6,842 bases of DNA from Pseudomonadota bacterium (GTDB lineage: Bacteria > Pseudomonadota > Alphaproteobacteria > Acetobacterales > Acetobacteraceae), in NCBI GenBank assembly GCA_021808205.1, contig JAKBCD010000096.1, forward strand, positions 1-6,842. Reading direction: 5' to 3'. Position numbers and translations under genes: made by a program. The notes beneath the pieces were generated by a model that saw only the letters and a list, made by a program, of their open reading frames with translations, was not told the origin of the DNA and searched no databases. Shown piece by piece: positions 1 through 6,842 of this stretch (its first letter is position 1; every line of letters starts with the position of its first letter).

Positions 1-152
1 TCGATATGGTGCGCCGGGATGCGTTGAAAATGGGCTATACCCATATCGAACTTTCCTGGATTCTTGAAGACAATATGCCAATGCGCCGGATGATCGAGAG
101 CATGAACGCCAAGCCCTACAAAACCTATCGGGTGTTTGAGGCGGCGCTTTAA
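1..152 (+). CDS. GNAT-fold N-acyltransferase, C-terminal end (5' truncated by window); candidate ceramide synthase-like
   Basis: The gene enters from the left edge; the first complete codon is at base 3 and the TAA stop is at 150-152, so 49 residues are visible. The residues ELSWILEDNMPMRRMIESM followed by AKPYKTYRVFE are the typical end of a GNAT domain. The strand with ELSWILEDN comes first, then a helix that lines the acyl donor pocket, then the last strand KTYRVFE. This ending is common in a group of alphaproteobacterial GNAT proteins often labelled only as acyltransferase. The bacterial ceramide synthase (bCerS), which N-acylates the sphingoid base, is also a GNAT-like protein. The adjacent acyl-AMP ligase and epimerase make that role attractive here. 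The catalytic part lies outside the window, so the substrate is inferred from context only. It is convergent with the epimerase gene and shares its stop-codon bases. Confidence 0.7.
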   Translation, partial: DMVRRDALKMGYTHIELSWILEDNMPMRRMIESMNAKPYKTYRVFEAAL

Positions 153-1105
153 CCGCGCAGCCAGCCTGCCTGGCGATACCACGCAACGGTTTCGGCAAAG
201 CCCCGCGCCAGATTTATGCGCGGGGTGTAAATCTCTCTCGGCAAAAGCTCAGCCGGGTGCACAGACCAATCGGGGTGCAGAACCTCCCGCGCTTTGCCAA
301 GGGTAAAAATCGGCGGGGTTTTGCTAAAGCCGCCCAGCAGCCCGGAAGAAAACCCCGCTGATAAAACCAAAGCTTTTGGCAAACGTATCAATTTTGTTCG
401 CCCACCAGTGGCGCGCGCGGCCGCATTCATCAGCGCGCGCAGGGTGTAGCCTTCCGGGCGCTCATCGGCGAGGGCAAAGCAACCAGGCTGAAACTTCGGC
501 CCTGCCATGGCGGTAATGGCACCTGCCGCGTCCGCCGCATTTATCACCGCGGCTTTGCCCTCGCTCAGTAATGGCGCGACTAGGTATAAACTTGCCCGGA
601 ACAGCGCCAAGGTTTGCCTGTCCCACGCTCCGTAAATCGCTGGTGGACGCAGGATCGCCAATTGTGCCTCGGCATCACGGAATTCCCGTCGTGCCGCGTC
701 CTCCGCAGCTTGCTTACTGAATGCGTAGTCAGAGAGTTGCGGCTCCCGTGCTGCCAGGGATGAGATCAGAGTAAATTTCGCATCAGGTGCCACGCGCCGC
801 GTTATCCGCGCCAATGCCGCCGTGCCGCCCTGATTGGCGTGCAGAAATGCCCCCCGGTTGCGCGCCTTGATCAGCCCGGCGGCATGCACCACCACATCTG
901 CATCCTGCACAAGTGCCGCCAGAGCTGATTTATCCTCCAGCCTGCCCCGCACGGTTTCAAAGCTGATGCCATCAAAAACCGGATGCGCTGTGCCGTGCCG
1001 CGCCAGCAGCCGCAGCCGGAAGCCTGATTGCGCCAGAGCAGGGACGAGATGCAGCCCTAAAAACCCGGTGCCACCAGTGACGGCAACGAGCGGGCCAGGG
1101 CTCAT
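149..1105 (-). CDS. NAD(P)-dependent epimerase/dehydratase of the extended SDR family; candidate 3-keto-ceramide reductase (CerR-like)
   Basis: This complete gene encodes 318 residues, a normal length for an extended SDR. The N-terminus carries the Rossmann nucleotide loop TGGTGFLG at residues 10-17, preceded by a hydrophobic strand. VVVHAAG at 71-77 is the usual strand-4 motif. The catalytic set is visible: SS at 115-116, Tyr127 and Lys131 (YAFSK), with RPPAIYG at 153-159 after it. No signal peptide or clear membrane segment is seen, so it should be cytosolic or peripheral. The ATG overlaps the TGA of the upstream acyl-AMP ligase by four bases (ATGA, 1102-1105) and has no good Shine-Dalgarno, so translation is probably coupled. 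In Caulobacter an enzyme of this family reduces the 3-keto group during ceramide synthesis and sits beside an acyl-ACP synthetase. That precedent plus the GNAT neighbour suggests the same job. Sugar-nucleotide or steroid-type SDR activity cannot be excluded. Confidence 0.85.
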   Translation of the reverse strand: MSPGPLVAVTGGTGFLGLHLVPALAQSGFRLRLLARHGTAHPVFDGISFETVRGRLEDKSALAALVQDADVVVHAAGLIKARNRGAFLHANQGGTAALARITRRVAPDAKFTLISSLAAREPQLSDYAFSKQAAEDAARREFRDAEAQLAILRPPAIYGAWDRQTLALFRASLYLVAPLLSEGKAAVINAADAAGAITAMAGPKFQPGCFALADERPEGYTLRALMNAAARATGGRTKLIRLPKALVLSAGFSSGLLGGFSKTPPIFTLGKAREVLHPDWSVHPAELLPREIYTPRINLARGFAETVAWYRQAGWLRG

Positions 1106-2841
1106 TCCGCTGCGGTGGCGGTGGCCTGAGGAAGAAAGGCGCCGGCCTGATACATCATCCGTGCGCGGGAGCGGCTGAGCTTGCCAGAGGATGTTTGCGG
1201 CAGGCTATGCGGTGGCACCAGCACAACGCGGGTTTCCAGCCCTTGGCGGCCAAGGAAGAAGCGGGTGAGCGCCAGCGCCAGCGCCTCGCGTTGGGCGGGG
1301 TCGGTCATACGGCATTGCACCAGCACCACAACCTCCTCATCCTCGCCGTTATCCACCGAGAACACCGCCACATCGCCGCTGCGCAGGCTTTGCACCTCAG
1401 CCTCGGCGGCCCATTCAAGGTCTTGCGGCCAGACATTGCGGCCATTGACGATGAGGAGATCCTTCGCCCGGCCGGTAATGACGATCTGCGTGTTGACAAG
1501 ATAGCCAAGATCACCGGTATCCAGCCAGCCATCCTGGGCGAGTACGCGTGCGGTTTCCTCCGGTGCGCCGAAATAGCCTAGCATCATGCTTGGCCCACGC
1601 ACGAAGATGCGACCCACCTCGCGTTCGCCCAGCGTGGTGCCGTCTTCACCGCGCACCTCTACCTCATGATTGGGCAGCATTTGTCCGCAGATCACGAAGC
1701 GGCGTGTACGTTCGCTATCTGCACTGGCGGGCACGGCACGGTGCTCGCGCTCCAGGGCTAGCCCATCCACGGCGTCTTCCCGGGCACCCTGGCCATCCGG
1801 GCTGAAGCTCAACGCCACCGTTGTCTCGGCCATCCCGTAGCAGGGAATGAAGGAGGTTCCTGGAAAGCCGTTGGCGCTGAAGCGCTCGGCAAAGCGGGTC
1901 AGCACGGCCGGGCGGATCATGTCGCCGCCGATGCCAGCGCGCCGCCAGGAGGAAAGGTCGATATCGTCTGTCGAAGCTGTTCGCGCCCGGCGGGTGCACA
2001 GCTCGTAGCCAAAAGAGGGGCTGAACGAGATGCTGGCCTTGTTCCGGGTGATGAGCTGCAGCCAGAGCAAGGGCCTGCGGGCAAATTCGCGTGTCGGCAG
2101 AATATCAACCGAGATCTGACAGGCCAAGGGCATCAGCAGAAATCCGACCAGCCCCATATCGTGATAGAAGGGCAGCCAGCTCGTGCAGCGATCTTCCTCG
2201 TTCACCTGTAAACCGAATTTCGCCATGTAATAGGCATTGGCCATGAAGGCGGATTGCGTGATCGCGATGCCAAGCGGAAAGCGTGTACTGCCGGAGGAGA
2301 ATTGCAGGTAGGCGAGGGATTCGGGGGCCGGCAGTGCTTCTTCGTCCACCATCGGCGCGCCCTCAAGCGCTGCAATCATGCCCGAGCAACGCAGGCCGAG
2401 CCCTTCCACCGCCTCCGCCAGCCAGTCAGCCAGCACGGCAGGGCCGAACACGGCGTGCGCATCGGCACCCTGGATCATCCGGCGCAAGAAGGAGATATAT
2501 CCCTCCTTGCCGCCAAAGGCTGAGGGCAAAGGCAGCGGGGCGGGCACCAGCCCGGCATATTGGCATGCGAAAAACGCGCGAGCGAAATCGCCATCGCTCT
2601 CGGCCAGCAGCCCCACACGTTCGCCGGGTTGCAGCCCAGCACCCAGCAGCCGACGCGCCAGCGTCACGGCCTGGTTTCGCAAGGCGGCGTAGGGCAGCAC
2701 CTCGGTCAGCACGCCTTTGCCGGAGTAGAAATTCAGGCCAGTGGTGCCGCGCGCGGCATAATCCAGGGCTTCGGCGAGAGTCCCGAAATCGGCGATACGC
2801 ATGGCCAGCCCATTCTGGTGAGTCGGGGTGGGCTCAGTCAT
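1102..2841 (-). CDS. Fatty acyl-AMP ligase / acyl-ACP synthetase (ANL superfamily), AasR-like candidate
   Basis: This is a 579-residue adenylate-forming enzyme. Motifs appear in the usual order: P-loop SSGSTRFPLG (182-191), SWLPFYHDMGL (221-231), SFSPSFGYELC (272-282), YGMAET (335-340), TGDLGY (442-447), GRAKDLLIVNGRNVWPQDLE (457-476) and the C-terminal catalytic lysine in SSGKLSR (Lys554). The P-loop reads STRFPLG instead of the STGxPKG of acyl-CoA ligases. That variant, with the YHDMGL segment, is typical of fatty acyl-AMP ligases, which load acyl-AMP onto an acyl carrier protein rather than CoA. The chosen ATG at 2841 begins MTEPTP; an alternative Met lies 13 residues later. The open frame continues to 3078, but those 79 residues are basic and unlike the family, so I exclude them. 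An AGG precedes the ATG at short distance. The gene overlaps the epimerase by four bases and probably supplies the fatty acid for N-acylation of a sphingoid base. No carrier protein gene is visible here. Confidence 0.88.
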   Translation of the reverse strand: MTEPTPTHQNGLAMRIADFGTLAEALDYAARGTTGLNFYSGKGVLTEVLPYAALRNQAVTLARRLLGAGLQPGERVGLLAESDGDFARAFFACQYAGLVPAPLPLPSAFGGKEGYISFLRRMIQGADAHAVFGPAVLADWLAEAVEGLGLRCSGMIAALEGAPMVDEEALPAPESLAYLQFSSGSTRFPLGIAITQSAFMANAYYMAKFGLQVNEEDRCTSWLPFYHDMGLVGFLLMPLACQISVDILPTREFARRPLLWLQLITRNKASISFSPSFGYELCTRRARTASTDDIDLSSWRRAGIGGDMIRPAVLTRFAERFSANGFPGTSFIPCYGMAETTVALSFSPDGQGAREDAVDGLALEREHRAVPASADSERTRRFVICGQMLPNHEVEVRGEDGTTLGEREVGRIFVRGPSMMLGYFGAPEETARVLAQDGWLDTGDLGYLVNTQIVITGRAKDLLIVNGRNVWPQDLEWAAEAEVQSLRSGDVAVFSVDNGEDEEVVVLVQCRMTDPAQREALALALTRFFLGRQGLETRVVLVPPHSLPQTSSGKLSRSRARMMYQAGAFLPQATATAAE

Positions 2842-2990
2842 ATCGCCTAGAAAACGCCGTGGTTGCCATCCTGTTGGCGCTAACAGAGTCGCAAGGAAAT
2901 GGCAATGCTTTGCCGTGTGTGCGGTTGATAGCGCCGCCCGCCGCCGAGCACAAGCGCAAGGCCGTTTTGGCATCTTGCCGCGAAGTCTCC
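2842..2990. other. Divergent intergenic region between acyl-AMP ligase and glycosyltransferase remnant
   Basis: These 149 bases lie between the minus-strand acyl-AMP ligase start and the plus-strand glycosyltransferase remnant, so they must hold the promoter of the minus-strand pair unless it is farther upstream. On the minus strand I see only a weak pair, TTGCCA and, after about 17 bases, TAGCGC. This is too poor a match to sigma-70 consensus to call. No convincing operator, terminator or RNA gene is visible. Open frames crossing it in several frames are overextensions. Confidence 0.4.
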
Positions 2991-3403
2991 ATGAGCATCC
3001 CCAGAACGCTGCATTTTTGCTGGATCGGCCCCCATCTTGTCTGGGCGCAAGGTGTCGCGCTGCTCTTCGCCGCGGCACAAAGCGGCATCGACGAGATCAT
3101 TCTGCATCACACGGACGCGCTGGCCGAGGGCCGGTACCGCGCGCCTCGGCCAAGGCGGGGGTAAAATGCCAGCGCTTGACGCCGGAATCGCTGCTGGCTC
3201 CGGCGCCGGCGCGCTTGGGCTTGGGCTTGGGCGAGGCGCTCACCCGGCTTTACGCGCGGCTCTCCAGCCCGGTGCGCACCAAGCCCTATGTTGCGGTGAT
3301 CAACCCCGATTATGTGCCCGCCCATCGCCAAACTCAGCTCTACAGCGCCCTGGTGGATGCAAACATTCCAGGCTTATTCCGGCTGGAGCATGGTACCCGC
3401 TGA
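2991..3403 (+). pseudogene. Decayed DXD-type sugar glycosyltransferase (Gly_transf_sug-like): frameshifted and truncated
   Basis: An ATG at 2991 opens a frame whose start, IPRTLHFCWIG, is the signature N-terminus of bacterial capsular/sugar glycosyltransferases with a DXD motif. This frame continues through SGIDEIILHHTDALAEGRYR and then stops at TAA 3162-3164 after 57 residues. The frame one base back resumes family-like sequence from about 3143 (VKCQRLTPESLL, then GEALTRLYARLSSPV). This suggests a one-base loss in the GC run near 3138-3150. The family's next block, a helix followed by GGxYxDxD with the metal-binding aspartates, is missing. The frame instead runs into unrelated residues (TKPYVAVINPDYVPAHRQ onward) and ends at TGA 3401-3403. 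The conceptual product is about 137 residues, whereas family members usually exceed 230. I read it as a dead gene with an internal deletion or junction near 3265-3275. A sequencing error could explain the frameshift but not the missing DXD part. It may once have glycosylated a lipid or polysaccharide. Confidence 0.6.
3214..3231 (+). repeat. Short tandem repeat (CTTGGG)x3 inside the glycosyltransferase remnant
   Basis: Three perfect copies of the hexamer CTTGGG lie head to tail. In the second frame of the glycosyltransferase remnant they encode alternating Leu and Gly (LGLGLG) just before EALTRLYARL. Related proteins, as I remember them, carry fewer LG units here, so one copy may be a slippage expansion, consistent with relaxed selection. 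The comparison is from memory and not computed. Confidence 0.7.
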
Positions 3404-3414
3404 CACGGCTGTCA
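3401..3414. promoter_or_regulatory. Perfect inverted repeat TGACA-N4-TGTCA, possible operator
   Basis: TGACA (3401-3405) and TGTCA (3410-3414) form a perfect 5-4-5 palindrome at the end of the glycosyltransferase remnant. A further GACAC occurs at 3422-3426. It sits about 320 bases upstream of the inositol-phosphate synthase start, where a promoter of a long leader could lie. Such short palindromes are typical operators but also arise by chance, and I cannot name a regulator. No T-run follows, so it is not an intrinsic terminator. Confidence 0.25.
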
Positions 3415-3734
3415 CACTTGCGACACATGCCGGAACAAGCTAGGACGCTTGACTACTTACCGCGCAAAGTTCGGACCCACCCAGGTTTAGCCCGCAGTCC
3501 GTCCGGAGCCTTACGCGTGAAAGCGCGTCGCTCCGGTGCCGAATGTCCCGGCGGGGTTGCGGCAGGCAAGGAGGCTTGGGTTTCAGGATTGAGATACGTC
3601 GGCGACTCACGAAACGGCAATTCGAAGTGGCAAGCCTGCGCCCGTGGCGGGCGTGTGCCTGCTCGCCATGCGCTCGCCCGGCTTTTTGCAACGCCCTGTT
3701 CCCCAGCAGAATTTAGCGAGAATCGAGGTTGATT
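3404..3734 (+). promoter_or_regulatory. Long non-coding leader of the inositol operon with several potential RNA helices
   Basis: No credible protein is encoded on either strand of these 331 bases. A strong nested hairpin occupies 3503-3536. Its outer stem is CCGGAGC (3503-3509) with GCTCCGG (3530-3536), and its inner stem is ACGCG (3513-3517) with CGCGT (3524-3528), closed by the loop TGAAAG. Downstream, AGGCTTG (3572-3578) is perfectly complementary to CAAGCCT (3631-3637), and within that GTTTC (3580-3584) pairs with GAAAC (3611-3615). This gives a branched domain of about 65 bases. An attenuator-like element follows at 3639-3687. A TTGACT at 3449-3454 could be a -35 box, but no good -10 is spaced correctly. 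The sequence ends in the Shine-Dalgarno GAGG (3725-3728), six bases before ATG 3735. I do not recognise a known riboswitch or ncRNA family. The pairings were found by eye; no folding energy was computed. Confidence 0.45.
3639..3687 (+). terminator. Attenuator-like hairpin with T5 tail and competing anti-hairpin ahead of ino1
   Basis: GGCGGGCG (3646-3653) can pair with CGCCCGGC (3675-3682) with one mismatch, and TTTTT follows directly at 3683-3687, which looks like an intrinsic terminator. The same GGGCG (3649-3653) can alternatively pair with the preceding CGCCC (3639-3643) around a GTGGC loop, which would break the terminator stem. GCTCGCC occurs twice as a direct repeat (3661-3667, 3672-3678), offering a further alternative partner. 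Mutually exclusive stems are the hallmark of attenuation. However, the terminator loop is long (21 bases) and GC-rich DNA yields such matches easily. Confidence 0.35.
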
Positions 3735-4868
3735 ATGGCGAAGAACGGCGGCATCCGCATCGCGATCGCGGGCATTGGCAATTGTGCCAGCTCCCTGATC
3801 CAAGGACTTTACTATTACACGCCAGAGCGCTGCGCCGAGGGCGTCGTCGGCCTGATGCACACTGAGATCGGCGGCTATCAGCCGAATGACATCAAGGTTG
3901 TGGCCGCGTTCGACGTGGATGCCCGCAAGGTCGGCCAGGATGTCTCCAAGGCCATGTTCGCCAAGCCCAACTGCACCACGGTGTTTCAGACTGAAATCCC
4001 GGAAATGGGTGTCACCGTGAAAATGGGCCAGGTGCTGGATGGTATTTCCGAGCATATGGCCAATTACGACGAGGACCGCACCTTCGTACGCTCTGACGCC
4101 AAGGAGCTGACCAAGACCGAGGTCGTCGCCGAGCTGAAGGCGAGCCGCGCCGACGTGCTGCTGAACTACATGCCTGTGGGTTCCGAGGCTGCCGCGCGGT
4201 TCTATGCCGAATGCGCGCTGGAGGCAGGCTGCGGCTTTGTCAACAACATGCCGGTGTTCATTGCCAGTGACAAAGCCTTTGCCGACCGCTTCGCTGCCGC
4301 CAACCTCCCGATCATTGGCGACGACATCAAATCCCAGGTGGGTGCCACCATCACTCATCGTGTGCTGACGGACCTGTTCGCCAAGCGCGGGGTTAAGCTG
4401 CTGCGGACCTACCAGCTCAACACCGGCGGCAACACGGACTTCCTGAACATGAAGAATCAGGATCGCCTGGCTTCGAAGAAAGTCTCCAAGACCGAGGCCG
4501 TGCAGGCCGTGACCAAGAAGCGGCTGGAGCGGGAGGATGTGCATATCGGCCCCTCCGACTACGTGCCCTGGCAGAACGACAACAAGATCGCCTTCATCCG
4601 CATGGAAGGCCTTTTGTTCGGCGATGTGCCGATGGATATCGAGCTGCGCCTCTCCGTGCAGGACAGCCCGAACTCCGCCGGCGTGGTCATCGACATGGTC
4701 CGCTGCTGCAAGTTGGCACTGGAGCTGGGCGTTGGCGGCGTGCTGGCCGGCCCCTCCGCCTATTTCTGCAAACACCCGCCCGTGCAGTACACGGACGATG
4801 TGGCCTACGAGATGACCGAGGCGTTCATCCGCACCCGTCCAGCCCTTGCGGTGACTGCCGCCGAATGA
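3735..4868 (+). CDS. ino1: myo-Inositol-1-phosphate synthase (inositol-3-phosphate synthase, prokaryotic type)
   Basis: The 377-residue protein converts D-glucose-6-phosphate to 1L-myo-inositol-1-phosphate with an internal NAD+ redox cycle in the cytosol. The NAD-binding loop IAGIGNCASS is at 11-20. Family blocks follow in order: LNYMPVGS (143-150), GDDIKSQVGATITHR (195-209, with active-site Lys199), QLNTGGNTDFLNM (227-239) and SKKVSKTEAV (247-256). The length fits the short bacterial/archaeal type, like the mycobacterial Ino1, rather than the roughly 510-residue eukaryotic type. The start is ATG 3735, six bases after GAGG (3725-3728); an in-frame TTG at 3729 would sit directly on the Shine-Dalgarno and is unlikely. 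Its TGA overlaps the next ATG (4865-4868), so it is the first gene of a translationally coupled operon that uses its product. The unusually long structured leader suggests RNA-level control. Confidence 0.95.
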   Translation: MAKNGGIRIAIAGIGNCASSLIQGLYYYTPERCAEGVVGLMHTEIGGYQPNDIKVVAAFDVDARKVGQDVSKAMFAKPNCTTVFQTEIPEMGVTVKMGQVLDGISEHMANYDEDRTFVRSDAKELTKTEVVAELKASRADVLLNYMPVGSEAAARFYAECALEAGCGFVNNMPVFIASDKAFADRFAAANLPIIGDDIKSQVGATITHRVLTDLFAKRGVKLLRTYQLNTGGNTDFLNMKNQDRLASKKVSKTEAVQAVTKKRLEREDVHIGPSDYVPWQNDNKIAFIRMEGLLFGDVPMDIELRLSVQDSPNSAGVVIDMVRCCKLALELGVGGVLAGPSAYFCKHPPVQYTDDVAYEMTEAFIRTRPALAVTAAE

Positions 4869-5581
4869 AATGCCTCATCGTCGCCGCCGGGCAGGGTACC
4901 CGCCTGCGCGAGAAGGGGGAGTTGAAGCCGCTCATCCCCATCCGTGGCATGAAGCTGATCGAGCGGGTAATCCTTAACGCCAGACAGGCCGGCATCGACG
5001 AGTTCCTCGTTGTCACCGGCTACCGCTCGGAGGAATTGCAGGCCCATCTTGGGGAATTTGCCAGCCGCTCGGGTATTCACATCACCCGTATCTTCAACCG
5101 CGCCTGGGACAGGGCAAACGGCGTTTCCGTGCTGGCGGCCAAACAATATCTGGATGAGCCGTTTCTGCTGACCATGTGCGACCATCTGGTGCAGCCGGAG
5201 ATACTGCGAGAGCTGATGGAGGCGAAGCAGGAACCCGGCACCGTCACGTTGGGGGTGGATTTCAACATCGAAAACCCGTTGAACGACCCGGACGATGTGA
5301 CCCGTGTGAAATGCGAGGGCGACCACCTCAAGCATATCGGCAAGATCATCCGCGACTATAATTGCTTCGATACTGGTGTGTTCCGCTGCACTCCGGTGAT
5401 GTTCGAGGCGCTGGAAGCTTCCCAGGCGCGGGGCGATGACAGCATCTCAGGTGCGATGAGCGTGCTGGCCGAATGGGGTAAGGCGCGTGTGCACGATATC
5501 GGTACCCGGCTTTGGGTGGATGTTGACGACCCCATCGCCTTCGGCAAGGCCGAGGCGCTGCTGGATGAAGGCAGGCTTTAA
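4865..5581 (+). CDS. Nucleotidyltransferase, probable CTP:inositol-1-phosphate cytidylyltransferase
   Basis: This 238-residue Rossmann-like NTP transferase carries the signature AAGQGTRLREKGELKPL at 7-23, with the GxGTRL phosphate loop and Lys21. NGVSV at 86-90 probably contacts the base. CDHL at 105-108 supplies the metal-binding Asp106; the CDHL form resembles the DH motif of inositol-1-phosphate cytidylyltransferases rather than the GD of glucose-1-phosphate enzymes. NCFDTGVF at 166-173 and WVDVDDP at 217-223 (Asp219/Asp221) complete the site. In Archaeoglobus and Thermotoga relatives this domain makes CDP-inositol and is often fused to a CDP-alcohol phosphatidyltransferase. Here it is free, but it lies directly between the inositol-phosphate synthase (ATGA overlap) and a CDP-alcohol phosphatidyltransferase (no spacer). 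The substrate is inferred from this context and these motifs. A choline-phosphate (LicC-like) or sugar-phosphate substrate is the main alternative. No strong ribosome binding site precedes it, so coupling is likely. Confidence 0.82.
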   Translation: MKCLIVAAGQGTRLREKGELKPLIPIRGMKLIERVILNARQAGIDEFLVVTGYRSEELQAHLGEFASRSGIHITRIFNRAWDRANGVSVLAAKQYLDEPFLLTMCDHLVQPEILRELMEAKQEPGTVTLGVDFNIENPLNDPDDVTRVKCEGDHLKHIGKIIRDYNCFDTGVFRCTPVMFEALEASQARGDDSISGAMSVLAEWGKARVHDIGTRLWVDVDDPIAFGKAEALLDEGRL

Positions 5582-6460
5582 ATGAGCAACGCCGCCTTTG
5601 GCGCGGCGGACCCCATCCGCCGGACCTTTGAGATTGAGGACCCGACCAACCTCTATTTCATCCACCCTCTCTCCGCCCGGCTGGTACCGGTGTTCGCCAG
5701 ATACGGCATCACCCCCAATACGGTGTCGTTCATCGGCATGGGCTGCGGCATTCTGGCTGGTGTAGCCTATCATTTCTATAATCATACCGCCTGCGCCCTG
5801 CTCGGCTTCGCGCTCATGCTCGCCTGGCATGTGATGGACGGCGCAGACGGCCAGCTCGCCCGCCTCACCAAGAGCTATTCCGAGCTTGGCAAAGTACTGG
5901 ATGGCATTTGCGACTACGTCACCTTCACCGCCGTTTATGTGGGGCTGGCCTTGGCCATGAGCCGTTTCATGGGCGGTTGGGCCTGGGCGCTGGTGGCGTG
6001 TTCAGGTGCTGCCCATGCCGTGCAATCCGCCGCTTTCGAAATGCAACGTCAGGATTATAATTTCTGGGGCTGGGGGCGTGCTTCCGCGGCGCTGCCAAAG
6101 CTGGAAGAGAGGCCAAGGGGCATTGCCGGGCATCTGCACCATCTCTACGCCCGCGTGCAGCTATGGGCCGCGGGCGGCGCGGCGCAATTCCATGCCGGAT
6201 TCGGCGCGTTGCTGGTGGCGAATCCGCAACGCGAGGTTAATTTGCGCGCCGCCTATAGAGAGTCCTTCGCCCCGGTGATCCGCCGCTGGGGAGTGCTCGG
6301 CGCCAATTACCGCACGCTGGGGTTGTTCATCGCGGCACTGATCAAGCTGCCGGTGCTGTATTTTGTATTCGAAATACTGGGCTTTGGCGCGATTCTGTTC
6401 GTACTGCTGGAGGCGCAGAAAGCGCATTACCGCTCGTTCCTGGCGCAGGTCAGGGATTAG
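5582..6460 (+). CDS. CDP-alcohol phosphatidyltransferase, probable phosphoinositol (CDP-inositol-dependent) transferase
   Basis: The 292-residue integral membrane protein holds the complete family signature at 86-111. Asp86 and Asp89-Gly90 are followed by Ala93-Arg94, Gly103, Asp107 and Asp111, the D-x2-DG-x2-AR-x8-G-x3-D-x3-D pattern that binds two metals and the CDP substrate. Hydrophobic segments lie near 47-65, 70-85, 112-130, 133-150 and two in 245-280, which gives the expected six helices. GITPNTVSF at 42-50 precedes the first helix, as is usual. Between helices four and five there is a long polar, aromatic stretch (about 155-240, beginning QRQDYNFWGWG), so the protein is longer than the roughly 200 residues of PgsA-like enzymes. 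The ATG directly follows the TAA of the cytidylyltransferase, with AGG at 5573-5575. The likely reaction joins phosphoinositol from CDP-inositol to a membrane or soluble alcohol. Whether the acceptor is diacylglycerol, ceramide or inositol phosphate cannot be read from sequence. Confidence 0.88.
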   Translation: MSNAAFGAADPIRRTFEIEDPTNLYFIHPLSARLVPVFARYGITPNTVSFIGMGCGILAGVAYHFYNHTACALLGFALMLAWHVMDGADGQLARLTKSYSELGKVLDGICDYVTFTAVYVGLALAMSRFMGGWAWALVACSGAAHAVQSAAFEMQRQDYNFWGWGRASAALPKLEERPRGIAGHLHHLYARVQLWAAGGAAQFHAGFGALLVANPQREVNLRAAYRESFAPVIRRWGVLGANYRTLGLFIAALIKLPVLYFVFEILGFGAILFVLLEAQKAHYRSFLAQVRD

Positions 6461-6468
6461 AGCGCTAT

Positions 6469-6507
6469 GACTTTAGGTTCGCTCACTTTACGAGCGAGCC
6501 TGAAGTC
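6469..6507. terminator. Perfect 16-bp hairpin just after the inositol operon
   Basis: GACTTTAGGTTCGCTC (6469-6484) pairs along its full length with GAGCGAGCCTGAAGTC (6492-6507), counting two G-U pairs, around the seven-base loop ACTTTAC. It begins nine bases after the TAG of the phosphatidyltransferase. No T-run follows, so it is either a 3'-end stabiliser, a weak or bidirectional terminator, or the first unit of a repeat cluster. Confidence 0.6.
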
Positions 6508-6546
6508 TGAATCGCCCTCTATCTCATTGTTTTAGAGGCGGATTCA
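6508..6546. repeat. Second hairpin of the intergenic cluster
   Basis: TGAATCGCCCTCTA (6508-6521) faces TAGAGGCGGATTCA (6533-6546). Twelve of fourteen positions pair; a GC/CG swap gives a central 2x2 mismatch, and the loop is eleven bases with a TTTT at its end. It abuts the first hairpin with no gap. Read on the minus strand it lies downstream of lptG, so it could also help end that transcript. Confidence 0.55.
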
Positions 6547-6585
6547 GATTTTAGAGCGGATTACGTCGTGATTCGATCTAAAATC
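6547..6585. repeat. Third hairpin, overlapping the lptG stop codon; TTTAGAG/CGGAT repeat
   Basis: GATTTTAGAGCGGAT (6547-6561) pairs with ATTCGATCTAAAATC (6571-6585) with one mismatch and one G-U pair around a nine-base loop. Its right arm contains two bases of the lptG TGA stop (6584-6586, minus strand). TTTTAGAG followed by CGGATT occurs at 6530-6544 and again at 6549-6562, and an inverted TTTAGAGC-CGGAT copy reads on the minus strand at about 6586-6598. This pattern of repeated, palindromic, AT-rich units in a GC-rich genome resembles a dispersed intergenic repeat. Copies elsewhere cannot be checked here. Confidence 0.55.
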
Positions 6586-6842
6586 ATCCGGCTCTAAATC
6601 CACCAGCGTGACCGCGTTCCAGCAGCCAGCCGCCAAGCGCCAATAACAGTAGAGGTGGCGCAAGGGCCGAAAAGGCTGGGTTCACCGCCAGCAGCAGACC
6701 AAGATAGCCAGTGATCTGCTGCACCAGCACAAACACCATCCCCAGCAGCGCGCCGACAACAATCTGCCGCCCCGCCCCGCCCGAACGCTGCGGCCCGAAT
6801 GCGAAGGGCGCTGCGATCATCGCCATGCCAATTATCGAGAGC
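6584..6842 (-). CDS. lptG: LPS export ABC transporter permease LptG, C-terminal end (5' part outside window)
   Basis: The frame enters from the right edge as LSIIGMAMIAAPFAFGPQRSGG and ends at TGA 6584-6586, giving 85 visible residues. AAPFxxxPQRxGG followed by a hydrophobic helix (IVVGALLGMVFVLVQQITGYL) and a final helix (LAPPLLLLALGGWLLE) is the hallmark end of the LptF/LptG (YjgP/YjgQ) permeases. These proteins work with the ATPase LptB to extract lipopolysaccharide from the inner membrane. The arrangement fits LptG better than LptF, but the split is not certain from this fragment. The last residues (GGFRAG) are read from repeat-like DNA, so the natural C-terminus may have been altered. 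The gene is convergent with the inositol operon; an ATG at 6826 is internal, not the start. Confidence 0.8.
   Translation of the reverse strand, partial: LSIIGMAMIAAPFAFGPQRSGGAGRQIVVGALLGMVFVLVQQITGYLGLLLAVNPAFSALAPPLLLLALGGWLLERGHAGGFRAG

Follow-up and report, generated by a model that had tools for sequence, protein, structure and literature searches.

A candidate inositol sphingolipid gene cluster that joins ceramide-type genes to a CDP-inositol operon in Acetobacteraceae

The stretch of DNA analyzed here (the window) comprises 6,842 nt of contig JAKBCD010000096.1 (assembly GCA_021808205.1) from a bacterium of the Acetobacteraceae, and it combines ceramide-type genes with genes for CDP-inositol. 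Its genes are arranged in the order of a GNAT-type acyltransferase end (plus strand), an SDR gene and a fatty acyl-AMP ligase (FAAL) gene (both minus), a glycosyltransferase remnant (plus), the genes of inositol-3-phosphate synthase (MIPS), a cytidylyltransferase and a CDP-alcohol phosphotransferase (all plus; the last is called the transferase below), and the end of an LptG gene (minus; Table 1). Family and likeness matches confirm every gene that an earlier sequence-only reading had named, each where that reading had put it, and add the LptG end. The open reading frames of MIPS and the cytidylyltransferase share 4 bases and the transferase begins directly after the cytidylyltransferase stop, so the three inositol genes look like one operon. 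In the transferase search, the nearest named loci to the window are those of Acidocella and Rhodospirillales metagenome-assembled genomes (MAGs), which places the organism within Acidocella or near it. We consider it likely, from the gene content and its conservation, that the window covers the central part of a sphingolipid cluster whose product is inositol phosphoceramide, formed by passing phosphoinositol from CDP-inositol directly to ceramide.

Table 1. Genes and other features of the window, with the matches that identify them
Feature	Position	Strand	Evidence
C-terminal end of GNAT-type N-acyltransferase (bCerS/YghO-like)	3..152	+	49 residues; 53% identity with E. coli YghO (32 aa)
SDR / NAD-dependent epimerase family, CerR-type reductase	149..1105	-	PF01370 66.9 bits; 33% identity with 'epi' of the E. 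coli BL21 sphingolipid cluster (296 aa)
Fatty acyl-AMP ligase, AasR-type acyl-ACP synthetase	1102..2841	-	579 aa; NF006624 835.9 bits, cut-off 600; 43% identity with aasR of E. coli BL21 (558 aa)
Decayed glycosyltransferase, PF04488 (DXD) kind	~2989..3400	+	Two blocks matching relatives' open 319-339-aa gene
Conserved non-coding block	3410..3492	+	Upstream of MIPS; TGTC-N8-GACA palindrome; conserved stretch after palindrome; no Rfam match
Inositol-3-phosphate synthase (MIPS/INO1)	3735..4868	+	PF01658 128 bits; closest solved structure 1gr0, E 1.7e-116
Nucleotidyltransferase, predicted CTP:inositol-1-phosphate cytidylyltransferase (IPCT)	4865..5581	+	PF12804; best solved relatives 2xme, 4mnd, 4jd0
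CDP-alcohol phosphotransferase, predicted CDP-inositol:ceramide phosphoinositol transferase	5582..6460	+	PF01066 52 bits, cut-off 22
C-terminal end of LptG, second (sphingolipid-linked) LptF/LptG pair	6584..6842	-	PF03739, TIGR04408; fragment, under TIGR04408 whole-protein cut-off

The acyltransferase fragment matches no Pfam family, nor does a relative's full-length protein at E 0.01, and no solved structure was matched, so the GNAT label is taken from its likeness to E. coli YghO, a relative of the Caulobacter ceramide acyltransferase (PMC9386255; this and the other papers cited are used here from excerpts). The whole gene is found on a contig of the window's species (L031:3331-4461, minus strand); its 376-aa product is 43% identical to YghO over 371 aa (312 bits). 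The Rossmann stretch of the window's SDR starts at residue 7, and the starts of FAAL and MIPS were set by likeness to relatives. Beyond LptG, related loci (L034, L035, and L037) carry LptF, serine palmitoyltransferase (SPT), a GT4 glycosyltransferase, and a PIG-L protein. In L034, L037, L164, L168, and L169, SPT is immediately preceded by an acyl carrier protein (ACP) gene of 83-84 aa, with a PF00550 match for the L037 copy. The SPT of L034 scores 651.8 bits against NF047599 (cut-off 500). The sequence-only reading had proposed looking for SPT and an ACP near these genes, and in the relatives' loci both are present, right past LptG-LptF.

Taken together, the relatives (SPT and ACP) and the window (SDR, FAAL, and the end of GNAT) show all five families of the rhodobacterial ceramide pathway (Caulobacter spt, acpR, aasR, cerR/epi, and bcerS/aca; E. 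coli BL21 ECD_02850-02854). The likeness extends to the SPT-ACP adjacency and to an extra LptF/LptG pair alongside (PMC9386255, PMC11324152), while the head-group genes here are for inositol, not glycerate. The proteins are 43% (GNAT to YghO), 33% (SDR to epi), 43% (FAAL to aasR), 35% (ACP to acpR), and 55% (SPT to spt) identical to those of the E. coli BL21 cluster, from which aasR, acpR, and spt have been cloned (PMC9386255). E. coli BL21 also has lptG-lptF beside spt (32% identity for LptG and 30% for LptF), and the Caulobacter sphingolipid region holds second copies of LptC, LptF, and LptG (PMC11324152). In Acidocella, two LptF/LptG matches are found in each of the 15 SPT-less genomes, and four in 18 of the 22 genomes with SPT, the others having 2, 3, 5, and 5. 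The extra LptF/LptG copies go with SPT-bearing genomes and are located beside SPT.

We compared the gene order with that of 19 other loci of the same genus, three of which (L033, L038, and L043) lie on contigs that end before FAAL. FAAL is divergent beside MIPS-cytidylyltransferase-transferase in all 16 loci whose contig reaches it, and the full order GNAT-SDR-FAAL-MIPS-cytidylyltransferase-transferase is kept in 10 of these, with the contig ending first in 3. Nitrospirillum loci (L071 and L082) have the layout of the window. An assembly chimera or a chance neighbourhood was considered and rejected: a chimeric window is unlikely, because relatives share the same joins. In L047, L048, and L049 (the contigs of L088, L093, and L101), GNAT has moved across to the opposite flank of the transferase; the genes are thus rearranged yet clustered. 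The entire cluster is also found at 50-83% identity in a MAG labelled Geothrix (Acidobacteriota; L067), probably a mis-binned Acetobacteraceae contig.

In the inositol half, MIPS scores 447.8 bits against TIGR03450, under its cut-off of 638. The cytidylyltransferase has the IPCT 2xme as its closest solved structure and retains the GxGTRL ... KP signature in alignments to 2xme, 4mnd, and 4jd0, and NF041135 covers it over the IPCT half with 120.7 bits, under the cut-off of 580; we predict that it is an inositol-1-phosphate cytidylyltransferase. MIPS alone was rejected as a lipid marker. Its best plasmid match, in Sphingomonas LK11, sits by ion-channel and metal-transport genes, and no cytidylyltransferase or CDP-alcohol transferase is annotated in that stretch, so MIPS by itself is uninformative on lipids.

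The transferase has the hallmarks of the CDP-alcohol phosphotransferase superfamily: PF01066 is over its cut-off, the DxxDGxxAR-x8-GxxxDxxxD motif is invariant across 18 aligned sequences, and the structure model (pLDDT 83) finds AF2299 as the best Foldseek match (E 1.8e-4, TM ~0.47), followed by phosphatidylinositol-phosphate synthases, CEPT1, and DIPPS. By sequence, its solved relatives, all weak, are AF2299, CEPT1/CPT1, phosphatidylinositol-phosphate synthases, and phosphatidylserine synthases. CEPT1 and CPT1 join a soluble CDP-alcohol to a lipid alcohol. No NCBIfam model scores over its cut-off against the transferase; the best are archaetidylinositol-phosphate synthase (53 of 180 bits) and phosphatidylinositol-phosphate synthase (40 of 170 bits), and NF052561, the model of the Bacteroides BT_1523-type phosphatidylinositol-phosphate synthase, gives 22.5 bits against a cut-off of 350. 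Some sources label relatives of the transferase as phosphatidylserine or phosphatidylglycerophosphate synthase, so the enzyme is hidden by its annotation.

The linkage of the two gene sets, which the sequence-only reading had offered for a co-occurrence check, proves strong in genus and family, and the order is kept in relatives. Among 36 Acidocella genomes besides that of the window's species (cut-offs E <1e-80 for the transferase, E 1e-60 for SPT, and E 1e-20 for GNAT), the transferase is present in 19, SPT in 21, and a GNAT orthologue in 20. All 19 transferase carriers have both SPT and GNAT, and none of the 15 SPT-less genomes has the transferase (Fisher p 2.4e-8, uncorrected for kinship). 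Across 299 genomes of the family (transferase E 1e-30, SPT E 1e-90), 25 carry the transferase, 99 carry SPT (97 over the cut-off), and 24 carry both (p 6.9e-12, likewise uncorrected for kinship); SPT is thus present in 24 of 25 carriers and in 75 of 274 non-carriers. The sole SPT-less carrier, G192 (its contig is L137; also listed as G399), has an in-frame TAG inside the transferase (L137 ~8318-9300), as if the gene were decaying after loss of ceramide synthesis, and a MAG error is also possible. In the class sample of 327 genomes, SPT is found in 48 and the transferase in one, which has SPT too, split over two contigs with 495 bits on one (cut-off 500) and its start on the transferase contig.

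The same association is seen in 80 named loci that were found by transferase similarity and counted over each locus's examined stretch. MIPS together with IPCT is present in 56, LptF or LptG in 50, and SPT at 250 bits or more in 27, with partial SPT in three further loci (L069, L072, and L092). Three loci (L065, L093, and L107) seem to come from SPT-containing genomes of the genus and L120 was left out, so that 46 carrier genomes without an adjacent SPT were searched; SPT is over the cut-off elsewhere in 39, split over two contigs in G381, and present at 393 bits in G398 (Rhodothermia). Named species with isolates among the loci include Acidocella aminolytica, A. facilis, A. aromatica, Gluconacetobacter diazotrophicus, and Nitrospirillum. 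That the ceramide and inositol halves travel together, linked or not, and that this is not by chance, is well supported by these counts.

The strongest new observation is that GT4 tracks the inositol transferase rather than ceramide synthesis. At E 1e-70, GT4 is found in 26 of the 299 family genomes, namely in all 25 transferase carriers and in 1 of 274 non-carriers (G256, 67% complete), and 75 of the 99 SPT genomes of the family sample are without it. Ten of the 26 GT4 matches were flagged with one stop, and in both of those that were checked (G061 and G090) the stop is the natural end of the gene. In G273, GT4 lies ~150 kb from the transferase, so the tie is more than neighbourhood. The cluster GT4 is closest to the structures of BshA, MshA, and PimB, whose acceptors by entry name are malate, inositol phosphate, and a phosphatidylinositol mannoside. 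Neither GT4 nor the PIG-L protein reaches the NCBIfam equivalog cut-offs for mycothiol enzymes (105 of 462 bits against MshA and 23 of 224 bits against MshB, respectively). Given the GT4 tie and the PIG-L neighbour in Acidocella, glucosamine (GlcN)-inositol-phosphoceramide would be the simplest product, the sugar being a guess.

Compared with the open gene of sister species (~319-339 aa), the PF04488 remnant in the window has lost ~570 bases of the middle, including the DXD stretch, and its N-terminal frame stops at 3162-3164; the same remnant is found on contig C10 of G000, an assembly of the window's species. The sole solved match of the PF04488 enzyme is weak, an initiation-specific mannosyltransferase at E 0.051. 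Such a gene was not seen in some of the compared loci (e.g., L037, L071, and L082), so the decoration that it would provide looks optional. The sequence-only reading had suggested that this glycosyltransferase once extended the head group. The relatives' open copies and the tie between GT4 and the transferase across the family fit that suggestion.

In the route that we propose, FAAL/AasR would load a fatty acid onto a dedicated ACP, SPT would condense the ACP-bound fatty acid with serine, GNAT/bCerS would attach the second acyl chain, and SDR/CerR would reduce the keto group to give (dihydro)ceramide. MIPS would provide inositol phosphate and the cytidylyltransferase would convert it to CDP-inositol, from which the CDP-alcohol phosphotransferase would move phosphoinositol to the 1-OH of ceramide with release of CMP. 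In relatives, the MshA/BshA-like GT4, the PIG-L protein, and the PF04488 glycosyltransferase may then decorate the inositol, the PF04488 step having been lost in the window's lineage, and LptF2/LptG2 may assist export of the lipid. Families, gene order, conservation, and co-occurrence form the basis of this scheme, and the enzyme activities, the direct ceramide acceptor, the sugars, and the export are predicted from them. An inositol sphingolipid is very probably the product, with direct transfer to the ceramide acceptor and subsequent glycosylation standing as good hypotheses. The more elaborate version, in which direct CDP-inositol:ceramide transfer is followed by addition of N-acetylglucosamine by GT4, exposure of the amine by the PIG-L deacetylase, and transport by LptF2/LptG2 toward the outer membrane, is put forward tentatively, at somewhat less than an even chance. 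If true, the lipid would be an independently evolved bacterial counterpart of the glycosyl inositol phosphoceramide (GIPC) and glycosylphosphatidylinositol core lipids.

Several observations weigh against the assignment to a direct ceramide route. Two genus genomes, G001 and G025, have SPT without the transferase; in G001 contig ends interrupt the cluster at just the stretch where the transferase would lie, and in G025 LptG-LptF-ACP-SPT is present with no transferase beside LptG. No clear SPT was found in 5 of the 46 carrier genomes searched (G355, G379, G395, G396, and G399), and SPT lies within 10 kb in only 14 of the 36 loci with full flanks, a low adjacency that arises because SPT is located elsewhere in the genome in Gluconacetobacter, Emcibacteraceae, and others. 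There is also no SPT match in G000 (1.84 Mb, 81% complete), where the stretch that would contain it is missing. Window positions 1-3482 are 99.9% identical to contig C10 of this assembly, which ends there, so that its cluster breaks at window base 3482, and similarity searches find neither the transferase nor the second LptF/LptG pair in G000; the lack of SPT is therefore a gap in the assembly and no sign that the gene is absent. G000 and the window possibly come from one sample, which makes them weakly independent. Both Foldseek and sequence place phosphatidylinositol-phosphate synthases close to the transferase, and PAP2_3 genes occur in part of the carriers, as detailed below. Finally, CerR is periplasmic in Caulobacter (PMC11087976) whereas CDP-inositol is presumably cytosolic, which complicates the sequence of the two steps: if the SDR works outside, the head group would have to be transferred before the keto group is reduced.

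The alternative that survives best, which we consider unlikely, is that the transferase joins CDP-inositol with diacylglycerol to give phosphatidylinositol, either as the end product or as the donor for another enzyme (an AUR1-like PAP2_3 or a HAD protein) that then moves phosphoinositol to ceramide. This order has been proposed for the Bacteroidetes alternate cluster by Heaver et al. (PMC9246714), and it agrees with the top NCBIfam matches of the transferase, far under their cut-offs as they are. Among 20 congeneric carriers (the 19 genus carriers plus G061), 6 have PAP2_3 over the cut-off, as does the assembly of the window's species at two places, one truncated, and weaker matches occur in most genus genomes (28 of 38 at E 0.001). 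However, nothing would explain why a glycerolipid enzyme occurs almost exclusively in genomes with SPT, and no PAP2_3 over the cut-off is present in the remaining 14 congeneric carriers, including 9 whose completeness is 95% or more. The 80 named loci show no PAP2_3 at 50 bits or more by likeness to the fragment of the window's species, and no HAD gene is among the scanned L034 genes, HAD not having been sought genome-wide. An AUR1-like PAP2_3 as the general inositol phosphoceramide synthase was rejected on the count of 6 in 20. Because the transferase tracks SPT and 14 of 20 congeneric carriers are without PAP2_3 over the cut-off, we infer that ceramide, rather than diacylglycerol, is the favoured acceptor.

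It is highly improbable that the cytidylyltransferase is a CpgD-like enzyme for phosphoglycerate or another polyol phosphate, so that the head group would not be inositol. Caulobacter CpgD does belong to the same fold family, has Thermotoga IPCT as its closest structure, and makes CDP-glycerate for a sphingolipid (PMC12275187), but MIPS overlaps the window's cytidylyltransferase by 4 bases, 56 of the 80 loci have both together with the transferase, and the solved relatives closest to the cytidylyltransferase are IPCTs, CpgD being known here by description. We give equally little credence to CDP-inositol being used for di-inositol phosphate, a soluble product, or for a glycan, with the sphingolipid genes adjacent by accident: IPCT plus CDP-alcohol transferase is the di-inositol phosphate recipe of hyperthermophiles (PMC9246714) and NF041135 weakly matches both halves, but the NF041135 enzymes are fused while the window's are separate, DIPPS (4mnd) ranks no higher than 20 in the fold search, and co-occurrence with SPT is tight in genus and family.

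The closest precedents are the CDP-glycerate sphingolipids of Caulobacter and a Bacteroidetes CDP-inositol cluster that is itself unconfirmed (PMC9246714). In the Caulobacter ceramide diphosphoglycerate (CPG2) system, CpgA-D likewise extend the head group with an IPCT-fold cytidylyltransferase and a CDP-alcohol transferase domain (PMC12275187, PMC11324152); compared by description, that system uses CDP-glycerate and a ceramide kinase first, whereas the window operon has MIPS. A ceramide kinase is not among the scanned L034 genes, in a scan that was not aimed at one. The Bacteroidetes alternate cluster (B. vulgatus BVU_RS13095/13105/13115) also holds MIPS, an NTP transferase, and a CDP-alcohol phosphatidyltransferase together, but, again by description, it includes a HAD hydrolase and a proposed phosphatidylinositol-diacylglycerol route, and the excerpt names no ceramide genes (PMC9246714); none of the scanned L034 genes is a HAD hydrolase beside the CDP-alcohol transferase. 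The pathway of B. thetaiotaomicron (BT_1522-1526; PMC8791184) shares MIPS and the inositol phosphoceramide product and differs in using a phosphatidylinositol-phosphate synthase, its phosphatase, and an AUR1-like synthase (PMC9246714). GT4 beside a PIG-L protein resembles MshA/MshB and BshA of mycothiol and bacillithiol synthesis, but the proteins are under the equivalog cut-offs and the predicted acceptor here is a lipid.

Eukaryotic inositol phosphoceramide and GIPC synthesis uses AUR1 and a SUR1-type glycosyltransferase. The cluster resembles it in the predicted glycosylated inositol phosphoceramide and in the PF04488-type glycosyltransferase, and differs in the transferase family and in the donor, which is phosphatidylinositol there and would be CDP-inositol here; the route is probably shorter than that of yeast and plants. 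Fungi, plants, and protozoa are the best-known sources of inositol sphingolipids, which some Bacteroidetes produce as well. One genome, G048, which we take from its SPT to be sphingomonad-like, carries SPT without any close transferase relative, and this gene set need not account for the lipid of Novosphingobium acidiphilum. That lipid, reported from this alphaproteobacterium with no genes assigned to it, is consistent with phosphoinositol dihydroceramide, and the species is described in the excerpt as being without homologues of either Bacteroidetes cluster (PMC9246714). Among the literature matches listed, with most subscription journals outside their scope, we recognized no account of this cluster in Acetobacteraceae or of a proteobacterial pathway to glycosyl inositol phosphoceramide. 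The loci provide testable genes for a direct CDP-inositol route in named, isolate-bearing species and a phylogenetic profile that ties GT4 to it.

Other features of the cluster were also noted. On its other side, beyond GNAT, a fatty-acid hydroxylase gene (PF04116) is found in L034. In the cluster contig of the window's species, the hydroxylase gene is preceded by an N-terminally truncated PAP2_3 (AUR1-like) gene and, next to it, an IS1595-type transposase (L031:6025-6534 and 6616-7533). Some Acidocella have an EamA-type transporter gene between SDR and GNAT (L034:16545-17417 and L164:913-1731), which could possibly carry the lipid or a precursor. G026 has separate GNAT copies on contigs C99 and C144, 91% and 93% identical to the query, from either a duplication or mixed strains. 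No RNA element in the window matches Rfam at E 1. The non-coding block upstream of MIPS aligns in the window and five relatives, with L035 differing by one palindrome base, and looks like a candidate shared promoter or operator. Between the convergent transferase and LptG genes, two neighbouring imperfect inverted repeats (window 6500-6585) perhaps form a two-way terminator.

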